Of a stretch of 34,150 bases of DNA, positions 9,213-33,226 are shown piece after piece (within the stretch, counting starts at the first letter, position 1; each line of letters begins with the position of its first letter). Position numbers and translations under genes: made by a program. The notes under the pieces were generated by a model that made no database searches, was not told the DNA's origin, and was given only the letters and a program-made list of their open reading frames with translations. Source of the DNA: Parcubacteria group bacterium GW2011_GWB1_45_10 (GTDB lineage: Bacteria > Patescibacteriota > Minisyncoccia > UBA6257 > Brennerbacteraceae). The stretch is from the NCBI GenBank assembly GCA_001001185.1, contig LCKC01000004.1, positions 1-34,150 of the forward strand. Direction: 5' to 3'.

Positions 9213-9284
9213 GCCGGAGTAGCTCAGTGGTAGAGCGTTGGTCTGAAGAACCAAGCGTCGGTGGTCCGATTCCGCCCTCCGGCA
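9213..9284 (+). tRNA. tRNA-Phe(GAA)
   Basis: Full cloverleaf; anticodon loop CTGAAGA in stem TTGGT/ACCAA. Confidence 0.95.
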
Positions 9285-9312
9285 CTTCGACAAGCTCAGT
9301 GCGAGCACAAAA

Positions 9313-15831: not shown

Positions 15832-15858
15832 CTGTCTGTTATGGTGAGGCCGGGGGTT

Positions 15859-15886
15859 GTTGGGATATCCATGAGGATATCCCAAC
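15859..15886. repeat. Perfect 12-4-12 palindrome GTTGGGATATCC-ATGA-GGATATCCCAAC
   Basis: Exact inverted repeat read from sequence. Confidence 0.9.
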
Positions 15887-15918
15887 TCCTCCAGACGCAC
15901 ATGGTTAAGCGGGTAGAC

Positions 15919-15978
15919 ATACGATTGGTTCTTGGTTGTTTAATTACCCGTGAGGGTAATTAAACTCTGGCATGCCCA
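15919..15978 (+). repeat. Degenerate tRNA-Ile(UAU) 3' half copy with perfect 12-4-12 palindrome GTTTAATTACCC-GTGA-GGGTAATTAAAC at the T-loop position
   Basis: ACGATTGGTTC and TGGCATGCCCACT match the tRNA tail; palindrome at 15938-15965. Confidence 0.8.
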
Positions 15979-16036
15979 CTTTGATTAAGAACGAATTTTA
16001 TGACTGATGCCTTTTTGATTAGATTATTTTTGTGAG

Positions 16037-19996: not shown

Positions 19997-20078
19997 GCCT
20001 AGGTGGCGGAATTGGTTTACGCGCACGACTCAAAATCGTGTGCCGCAAGGCATGTGGGTTCGAGTCCCACCCTAGGCA
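19997..20078 (+). tRNA. tRNA-Leu(CAA)
   Basis: 82-nt class II tRNA; anticodon loop CTCAAAA. Confidence 0.95.
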
Positions 20079-20088
20079 CTTATTTTTA

Positions 20089-20685
20089 ATGGACAAAAGA
20101 AATCGTCCCAAAACAATCAGTCTCGATCCGGCGCTTCGCGCCTATGTTGTGGGAGTTGCTCTCGGCGACGGCAATCTTTCCAATCCCAACGGTCGAGCTG
20201 TCAGGTTGCGGATAACCTGTGATACGGCTTACCTAAGATTAATAGAATCTATTTGCGCGGCGTTGAGAAAACTGCTTCCGGAAAATAAGATTTCTGTCCA
20301 TAATCAGAAAGGTAACTGTGTTTACGTAAGCTGTTATTCAAATCACTGGGAAAAATTATTGGGATGGAGGGCGTCCGGTGGCAGTAAGGCGAAACAAAAA
20401 ATTCGCGTGCCGCACTGGGTCATGAATCGTAGAAACACCATGATTTCTTGTTTAAAGGGTTTAGTGGAAACAGACGGCCCTGTGTATTTTGACAGGGGTT
20501 ATCAGATGGTGAATTTTACGAGCAATGTTAAATATTTAATCAATGACGTTTACTCTTTGTTTTCGGAATTAGGTTATCAACCCAATTTGTATTCAAGAAG
20601 GATTAGAACTGGCACAAAGTATACAATCCGATTGTCAAAAAACGTTCCTGATTTTTTGGCGGAATTTAAGCCATTAAAACAGTGA
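20089..20685 (+). CDS. Free-standing LAGLIDADG-type homing endonuclease-like protein
   Basis: Two LAGLIDADG-like motifs: AYVVGVALGDGNLS and CLKGLVETDGPVYF; start trimmed to the ATG downstream of tRNA-Leu. Confidence 0.8.
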   Translation: MDKRNRPKTISLDPALRAYVVGVALGDGNLSNPNGRAVRLRITCDTAYLRLIESICAALRKLLPENKISVHNQKGNCVYVSCYSNHWEKLLGWRASGGSKAKQKIRVPHWVMNRRNTMISCLKGLVETDGPVYFDRGYQMVNFTSNVKYLINDVYSLFSELGYQPNLYSRRIRTGTKYTIRLSKNVPDFLAEFKPLKQ

Positions 20686-24012: not shown

Positions 24013-24750
24013 ATGCCGACCATTCTGCCAAAACACGTAGCAATCATGCTTGACGGCAACCGCCGCTGGGCAAAGAAAAGAAAACTGCCTTCATTCCGCG
24101 GGCATTACCAGGGAGCCAAAACCCTTGAGTCTTTGATTGAAAACGCGGAAAAACTTGAGATTCCCTTTTTGACTTTTTGGGGCGGTTCAGCCGGCAACCT
24201 TTCAAAAAGGCCGGCCAGAGAAGTCAAAGCGCTGTTTGACGTTTACGGTACGTATTTCAAAAAGCTTTTGCGGCGCAAAGAAATTTTTGAAGAAAAAATT
24301 CGGGTGAGAATCATCGGCAGATGGGAGAACATGGTGCCTCAAAACGTCAAAAAGATTTTCCGCGAAGCGATTGAAAAAACGAAAAACCACAAAAAATATA
24401 ACCTGACGTTTTTAATCGCTTACGACGGTAAAGAAGAGATGCTAAGCGCTATCACTAAAATCTCCGCCAGAGGCGGATCTGCCGTAGGCAGAAAAAATCA
24501 GAAATCAAAAGCCAAAATTACCGAAGCCGAGCTTAAGCAAAATCTCTGGACCGGGGAGCTGCCGCCGGTTGATTTAATGGTTAGGACTGGCGTAGAAAAC
24601 GATCCGCACTGGTCAGCCGGATTTATGATGTGGCATTGCGCTGATACGCAGTTTTATTTCAGCAAAACTTTGTGGCCGGATTTCACGGTGAAAGAGTTTA
24701 AAAAAGCCTTGAAAAACTACGCCAAAACCCAGAGGCGGTTCGGAGGATAA
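24013..24750 (+). CDS. uppS: Isoprenyl (undecaprenyl) diphosphate synthase
   Basis: HVAIMLDGNRRWAKKR; DLMVRTGVENDPHWSAGFMMWHCADTQFYFS. Confidence 0.93.
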   Translation: MPTILPKHVAIMLDGNRRWAKKRKLPSFRGHYQGAKTLESLIENAEKLEIPFLTFWGGSAGNLSKRPAREVKALFDVYGTYFKKLLRRKEIFEEKIRVRIIGRWENMVPQNVKKIFREAIEKTKNHKKYNLTFLIAYDGKEEMLSAITKISARGGSAVGRKNQKSKAKITEAELKQNLWTGELPPVDLMVRTGVENDPHWSAGFMMWHCADTQFYFSKTLWPDFTVKEFKKALKNYAKTQRRFGG

Positions 24751-32600: not shown

Positions 32601-32676
32601 GGTGGCTGTAGCTCAGTCTGGTTAGAGCGCCAGGTTGTGGCCCTGGAGGCCGGGGGTTCGAATCCCCTCAGTCACC
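32601..32676 (+). tRNA. tRNA-His(GUG)
   Basis: Cloverleaf; anticodon loop TTGTGGC; G-1:C73 pair typical of tRNA-His. Confidence 0.94.
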
Positions 32677-32682
32677 CATTAT

Positions 32683-32708
32683 AAAACGCAAACTGCTTTG
32701 CGTTTTTT
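32683..32708 (+). terminator. Hairpin aaaacgcaaa-ctgc-tttgcgtttt plus T run
   Basis: 10-bp perfect stem directly after tRNA-His. Confidence 0.65.
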
Positions 32709-32799
32709 GAGGGGATTCGAAAGACGGAGCTTGTCCCGAAGGGACGCGAGGCGGGGTCGCGAGTTGCGAAGCAAACTTGTGACCGAATCCCCTCAGTCA
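32709..32799 (+). repeat. Element bounded by inverted GAGGGGATTCG / CGAATCCCCTC and ending in a second copy of the tRNA-His 3' tail
   Basis: CGAATCCCCTCAGTCACCC repeated exactly after the tRNA; related element at about 176-290. Confidence 0.75.
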
Positions 32800-32836
32800 C
32801 CCTTCGACAAGCTCAGGGTTTACTGAGTTTTGAAAT

Positions 32837-33109
32837 ATGAAATGGTTTGTTTACATACTTCTTTGTGATGAAAAAGCTTATTACGTAGGTCTAACTTCTG
32901 ATATTGAACAGAGATTAAAATCACATCATGCAGGTTACAACTTGGGGACTAAAGAATTTTCTAAAGTTCAATTGTTATATACTGAACAATATCAGAAGCG
33001 AATAGATGCAGAAAAACGTGAGAAACAGATAAAAGGCTGGGGCAGGAAAAAGAAAGAAGCTCTGATAATGCACGATTTGGAAAGCTTGAAAAAACTCAGT
33101 AAATCTTGA
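32837..33109 (+). CDS. GIY-YIG endonuclease superfamily protein
   Basis: WFVYILLCDEKAYYVGLTSDIEQRLKSHHAG. Confidence 0.9.
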   Translation: MKWFVYILLCDEKAYYVGLTSDIEQRLKSHHAGYNLGTKEFSKVQLLYTEQYQKRIDAEKREKQIKGWGRKKKEALIMHDLESLKKLSKS

Positions 33110-33226
33110 GCTGGCGACGCGACGAGGGGAATAATAGTGAGCCTGTCGAACCTATCCCCTCAGTCACCCAAGTTGTAAAAGTAAACTAGTTGTGGTTTAA
33201 TTGTGGCAGCTTGAAAGGAGGCGCGA

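Follow-up and report, generated by a model that had tools for sequence, protein, structure and literature searches.

Stem-loop-bounded GIY-YIG nuclease genes with duplicated tRNA parts in Patescibacteria: a candidate minimal mobile element

A tRNA-His gene, its tail copies and a small nuclease ORF

Within the window, by which we mean the whole 34,150-nucleotide stretch analysed here, the 3′ tail of an intact tRNA-His gene recurs twice downstream, and tail copies 2 and 3 lie directly outside two stem-loops that in turn enclose an ORF for a small GIY-YIG nuclease (Table 1). In particular, the 16-mer ATCCCCTCAGTCACCC is found exactly at 32662–32677, 32787–32802 and 33154–33169, with no further site of up to 3 mismatches in the whole window, and because three copies were obtained in 0 of 100 dinucleotide shuffles we reject a chance repeat. 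Copies 1 and 2 have 19 nt in common, 17 of which are matched in copy 3. An initial annotation of this DNA had described the three copies, the ORF between the second and third of them, and units of about 120 and 370 bp, and each of these stands (the copies are spaced 125 nt and 367 nt from start to start); it had also placed copy 2 at about 32784–32799, where a copy does exist, but with its 16-mer 3 nt farther on. The stem-loop ends, the start of the copied tail within the T-loop, the lack of an ORF in the first unit and a second class of loci on the 5′ side of the tRNA (see below) are additional to that description. The genome from which the window derives has two different tRNA-His genes, the second being located elsewhere in the genome.

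Table 1 Features of the tRNA-His locus (positions in the window)
Feature	Position	Strand	Basis or remark
tRNA-His (gtg), intact, presumed target	32602–32677	+	ARAGORN; Rfam tRNA 66.9 bits
Tail copy 1, the tRNA 3′ end, starting within the T-loop	32659–32677	+	Repeat comparison
Spacer without ORF; degenerate end-like stretch at 32726–32745	32678–32783	+	Absent in congener G004
Tail copy 2, 19/19 nt identical to the tRNA tail	32784–32802	+	Repeat comparison
Left end stem-loop, ACCCT-TCGACAAGCTC-AGGGT; 5′ stem supplied by the tRNA tail	32799–32819	+	
GIY-YIG nuclease ORF, 90 aa	32837–33109	+	Pfam GIY-YIG E 4.6e-16
Right end stem-loop, same loop inverted (GAGCCTGTCGA on the + strand); stem imperfect, one bulge	33134–33155	-	
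Tail copy 3, 16 nt exact	33154–33169	+	Repeat comparison

Between tail copies 1 and 2 no ORF of at least 80 aa is listed, and this first unit of about 120 nt may be the remnant of an earlier insertion that has decayed. In Ca. Brennerbacteria RIFOXYC1_FULL_41_11 (G004), a member of the Patescibacteria from the same genus as the window genome, an element with the same ends and the same tail copy, and with a protein 78% identical to that of the window, adjoins tRNA-His directly; its outer flanks look different from those in the window. The neighbours that we scanned at the window locus are an ABC transporter upstream and two unknown ORFs downstream. The initial annotation had noted no integrase, and we recognise no tyrosine or serine integrase among these three proteins (the contig ends at 34150, 981 bp past tail copy 3), which sets the locus apart from a tRNA-targeting genomic island.

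The 90-aa protein was modelled by AlphaFold2 with a mean pLDDT of 91.4. Its closest solved structures are the UPF0213 proteins 1zg2 and 1ywl, both uncharacterised, followed by Slx1; the match to 1zg2 has an E value of 2.8e-12 by sequence and 4.8e-6 by fold. Residues Y6, Y16, G18, R26 and E62 are invariant in an alignment of 11 sequences, and we take these to have catalytic roles by analogy with I-TevI. With its single domain and conserved Tyr, Tyr, Arg and Glu, the protein belongs with the UPF0213-type small GIY-YIG nucleases. In NCBIfam the matches, all to group I intron endonucleases, fell below threshold, and a search of viral contigs returned no relative.

Linkage of related ORFs to tRNA genes

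In the genome of the window there are 7 GIY-YIG matches, two of which are apparently one gene split by two contig ends; the ORFs include that of the window, one upstream of tRNA-Cys, one upstream of tRNA-Glu and one behind the tmRNA gene. An order-wide search gave a match in 134 of 200 genomes. From the best matches in these 134 genomes (E up to about 1.1e-9), together with weaker matches and second ORFs in the same loci, we assembled a set of 173 ORFs, in which identical ORF sequences were merged and from which L014 and L110–L121 were excluded. Among these listed matches, a tRNA or tmRNA gene lies no more than 350 nt away from 86 of the 173 ORFs, the other 87 having none within that distance. 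The linkage is close and directional: 93 t(m)RNA genes fall into the six 125-nt bins that adjoin the ORF, as compared with 16 in the fourteen bins farther away, and 91 of the 93 t(m)RNA genes within 325 nt are co-directional with it. Of the 87 genomes that contribute ORFs, 55 have a linked one, as do 18 of 23 families. Among named records from all phyla, by contrast, 17 of 82 matches are tRNA-linked, with 0 of 27 in Pseudomonadota and 0 of 17 in Bacteroidota, indicating that linkage is mainly a trait of Patescibacteria and not of the whole protein family.

Of the 85 loci that lack a tRNA close by, 80 were scanned with Rfam. A small number of related ORFs adjoin RNase P RNA (L084 and L135), 16S (L099) or 23S (L107) sequence, and on these grounds we reject targeting of tRNA genes only or of tmRNA genes only. 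(Note that L084 and L135 form one clade, with support 98, and that the RNase P RNA matches adjoining them are sub-threshold.)

The ends of the element can be described from the core TCGRCARGCTC, which occurs at 224 distinct places in the loci that we fetched. The four bases flanking it on either side pair in 97, 96, 95 and 85% of cases, as against 86, 66, 41 and 39% expected, and no such pairing is seen when the partners are shifted; the third stem pair is Watson-Crick in 95% of the 224 sites, against 41% expected. Judged by this covariation, the end is a predicted stem-loop with a constant loop and a covarying stem. The dispersed repeat CTTCGRCARGCTCAG is present in 101 of 200 genomes, whereas the reversed control pattern has one match among the genomes listed. 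Of solo copies of the end motif in the fetched stretches, 2 of 50 lie at tRNA 3′ ends. The motif occurs no more than 250 nt upstream of 17 of the 173 GIY-YIG ORFs, against a background of 0.0047 per 250 nt, and these 17 concentrate in the clade of the window and in one sister clade, the latter mostly without tRNA linkage. Counting matches of at least 70 bits, we also found it close to GIY-YIG genes in other phyla, among them 9 of 27 in Pseudomonadota, where it lies upstream. An exact-string search of the literature for the end motif found none.

Two further observations concern solo repeats. In the window, tRNA-Phe has a solo end, GCACT-TCGACAAGCTC-AGTGC, at its 3′ end (9282–9302), with no accompanying GIY-YIG ORF; the next ORF matches AAA_33 and, weakly, Zeta_toxin. 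Elsewhere (L258–L307), some solo CTTCGRCARGCTCAG repeats seem to lie within coding sequence, where they could add a Pro-Ser-Thr-Ser-Ser-Gly-Gln-like peptide.

Duplicated tRNA parts, empty sites and protein clades

The window belongs to a class of loci (class A) that reads, in order, intact tRNA, left stem-loop, ORF, right stem-loop, and a copy of the tRNA tail that starts inside the T-loop (position 57 or 59), and not at the end of the gene. We found 16 distinct class A loci in the window's clade, at genes for tRNA-His, Gln, Ser, Asp, Glu and Asn. At 13 of the 16 the tail copy is exact across the aligned 16–18 nt, and at all 16 it matches its own tRNA more closely than it matches the tail of the closest relative whose tail differs; indeed, class A elements whose proteins are 60–83% identical occupy tRNAs with different tails. 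The copied tail is thus of local origin. In a general test, tail copies scored above the control threshold for 12 of 42 ORFs 3′ of a tRNA, as compared with 23 of 821 swapped controls.

In a second class (class B), a copy of the 5′ part of a tRNA, interrupted by hairpins at one of its loops or arms, precedes the ORF, which is itself followed by an intact tRNA. This arrangement is seen at 23 of 39 loci but in only 5 of 456 controls, and at 8 of the 39 the remaining 3′ part of the split tRNA is found on the far side of the intact one (swap controls, 11 of 759). At tRNA-Pro in L011 and at tRNA-Gln in L037, for instance, the insert within the split gene contains the ORF plus a whole tRNA. Double-hairpin repeats (2 × 15 nt) lie within the class B tRNA copies and are also dispersed, at 11 sites in G000, 6 in G003 and 1 in G002, with none in G004. 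In the window, 30-nt double hairpins of two 15-nt palindromes head to tail, which are a dispersed repeat of the genome, occur at 24463, 30233, 30270 and 32358. At L095, L069, L090 and L114 the tRNA copies contain inserts with the ends TCCCG.../...CGGGA, possibly another small element family.

A search for GIY-YIG genes flanked by tRNA tails in relatives, as the initial annotation had proposed, thus ties these genes strongly both to tRNA genes and to duplicated tRNA parts. Tail copies in the absence of the ORF, which that annotation had named as evidence against an association, do occur; however, they are far rarer, partial tRNA copies being found at 36 of 84 tRNAs with a nearby GIY-YIG ORF and at 5 of 51 without one (Fisher p 3.8e-5). 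Among the ORF-less cases, tRNA-Cys in G005 has 5′ copies that end at G34 and its 3′ half downstream, and tRNA-Ser in G155 has broken copies on both sides. In the window itself, a broken partial copy of tRNA-Ile(tat) without an ORF lies behind the intact gene (15856–15979); the T-loop of the copy contains a palindrome of 28 nt, and a second palindrome precedes the copy.

Occupied and empty sites can be compared between species. The tRNA-Glu site is filled in G150, where the broken copy is located at the native upstream region, and is empty in G163, G080 and G169 of the same genus; the tRNA-Cys site is filled in G000 and G002 and is empty in G003, where the gene ahead of it is presumably rbfA. 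Other endonucleases were also seen at tRNA genes. In G003, with its empty tRNA-Cys site, an HNH endonuclease ORF (L115, 2046–2507) lies just before tRNA-Leu(taa). In the window, a second homing-endonuclease family directly adjoins a tRNA, in that a LAGLIDADG_3 ORF of 198 aa (20089–20685, E 9.9e-9) starts 10 nt behind tRNA-Leu(caa) (19997–20079).

The protein clades track both the tRNA isotype and the side of the tRNA on which the ORF lies. On a tree built by FastTree from 172 rows and 87 columns (one ORF shorter than 60 aa was excluded), which is weakly resolved, with 78 of 169 inner branches below support 80, isotype changes 31 times as compared with 51.9 expected (minimum 47), and side (whether the ORF lies 3′ or 5′ of its tRNA) 7 times as compared with 28.9 in shuffles. 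Neither value was reached in any of 1000 shuffles, which take the hosts as unrelated.

A candidate mobile element and its relation to known systems

We lean toward the reading that a minimal mobile element, about 350 bp long, resides at these loci; it would target tRNA genes yet leave the tRNA working. For this reading speak the anatomy of the locus, its recurrence on many isotypes, the locally copied tails, the covarying end stems and the sites that are empty in some species. The initial annotation had suggested a minimal endonuclease-driven tRNA-tail element; the association with tRNA genes and the duplicated tRNA parts support this in part, but the copy starts in the T-loop and not at the gene end. 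As we picture it, the element would be made up of a single GIY-YIG nuclease gene between two inverted stem-loop ends, and would enter a tRNA gene at the T-loop or, in relatives, also at the anticodon loop. The GIY-YIG protein would cut the tRNA gene and/or the stem-loop ends, and the tail duplication would arise at insertion through a staggered cut and repair; the tRNA ahead of the element would thereby remain whole, and the ORF could be expressed by read-through transcription from the tRNA promoter. At the class A loci, and in the comparison of empty and filled tRNA-Glu sites, the restored tRNA is unchanged by insertion; since it therefore has the uninvaded sequence, a double-strand DNA nuclease that reads the tRNA would cut its own site. 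It is plausible that the protein needs single strands or stem-loops, because single-strand GIY-YIG nucleases (Ssn) are known, or else a neighbouring copy may repair repeated cuts. Against this reading count the 87 unlinked ORFs, the modest share of downstream ORFs with tail copies (12 of 42), the scarcity of solo ends at tRNA 3′ ends, the lack of tRNA linkage in Pseudomonadota and Bacteroidota and the ORF-less partial copies; excision or insertion at the level of a population was not seen. A more specific proposal, which we put forward only tentatively, is a transposable element with GIY-YIG as its sole enzyme: the 90-aa nuclease would recognise stem-loop ends adapted to the target, cut tRNA loops and leave a regenerated or replacement tRNA, making a natural cleave-and-rescue element on many isotypes of Patescibacteria, with one class inserting nuclease and whole tRNA inside a split copy.

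Several of the same observations can be read in other ways. They might, though we doubt it, reflect a free-standing homing endonuclease cassette, in which the enzyme cuts the uninvaded tRNA loop and break repair copies in the ORF along with a piece of tRNA that travels with it (tail, 5′ part or an entire replacement tRNA) and preserves tRNA function. The fidelity of clades to isotype, the class B loci at which the 3′ rest of the outer, split tRNA lies beyond the intact one, and the tRNA-linked free-standing GIY-YIG homing endonuclease SegB of phages (PMC13096335) all argue for such a cassette; however, elements of the window's clade on different isotypes carry the local tail, so that a carried tail would need gene conversion, and the presumed cut site would survive insertion.

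Improbable, in our judgement, is that slippage or recombination at palindromic repeats duplicates tRNA parts, the GIY-YIG gene doing no more than occupy a place where it is tolerated. The dispersed hairpin repeats, and the ORF-less partial copies with hairpins at tRNA-Ile in the window, tRNA-Ser in G155 and tRNA-Cys in G005, would fit such a passenger, but it is at GIY-YIG ORFs that the proximity to tRNA genes, the strand bias and the partial copies concentrate, and the protein clades track isotype and side. Nor do we put much weight at all on a host or RNA-level function, whereby the protein would have the adjoining tRNA or its transcript as substrate and the linkage would reflect co-expression: although co-directional linkage is near-constant and some ORFs end within the tRNA gene (L005 and L017), presence is sporadic within a genus, many isotypes are involved, tRNA parts are duplicated or split, and GIY-YIG proteins are a family of DNA nucleases, the closest structures here being the uncharacterised UPF0213 proteins.

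The candidate element combines traits of several known systems. With its inverted ends and direct repeats of 16–19 nt copied from the local tRNA, it has the structure of a classical transposon; like free-standing homing endonuclease genes, the ORF lies outside introns and inteins and is sporadic at occupied and empty sites. The 15 tRNA-linked loci that we examined for introns (L001 included) contained none of group I or group II, and a group I intron with a GIY-YIG ORF is rejected for want of catalytic intron RNA at these loci. Stem-loop ends with conserved unpaired bases and dispersed solo repeats are shared with REP/RAYT and IS200/IS605, which differ in that their enzyme is Y1/HUH and not GIY-YIG and in that 16–19 nt direct repeats flank the element here; an IS200/IS605 or RAYT element is rejected, the sole ORF of at least 80 aa inside the element being that for GIY-YIG. 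The Ssn family comprises small, site-specific, single-strand GIY-YIG nucleases that act on the NTS repeats of Neisseria and modulate transformation. Our protein resembles them, on sequence alone, in being a small GIY-YIG nuclease with dispersed hairpin-like repeats around its gene, and differs from them in its presumed insertion into tRNA genes. The att sites of tyrosine integrases in tRNA genes likewise have break points in the anticodon loop or T-loop, with tRNA parts duplicated and function kept; here we see the same break points and duplication, but recognise no integrase in an element of about 350 bp.

According to a study of phages, SegB-type free-standing GIY-YIG homing endonucleases are enriched beside tRNA genes of many isotypes, with no isotype preference, and are linked to tandem amplification of tRNA regions (PMC13096335). 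Like SegB as portrayed there, the genes described here lie outside introns and adjoin tRNAs of many isotypes; unlike SegB, they reside on bacterial chromosomes, encode a 90-aa protein with little beyond the nuclease domain, have stem-loop ends, occur with tRNA parts that are duplicated or split at fixed loops, and form clades that follow isotype. Insertions in rRNA genes of the CPR, as described in another study, encode mostly LAGLIDADG enzymes and lie at the top or base of rRNA stem-loops, GIY-YIG being sparse among them and probably not spread by homing (PMC11270868). The bacterial radiation, the use of conserved RNA genes as sites and the presence of GIY-YIG among the enzymes are common to both; those insertions, however, sit inside the rRNA genes, whereas no group I intron accompanies the ORFs at the 15 tRNA loci examined. 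The best reading, by analogy, is that the element would work like phage SegB and the hairpin-repeat nuclease systems. The present combination was not found in the openly licensed papers that we searched.

If the mobile-element reading is correct, these elements would be among the smallest mobile elements known, and their home would be tRNA genes, which are essential and strongly conserved, in a bacterial radiation that is difficult to cultivate. They would illustrate how a GIY-YIG domain on its own gains access to many sites, would join integration at tRNA genes with free-standing homing endonucleases and with dispersed hairpin repeats that have a nuclease of their own, and would account for part of the repeat clutter near tRNA genes in these genomes.
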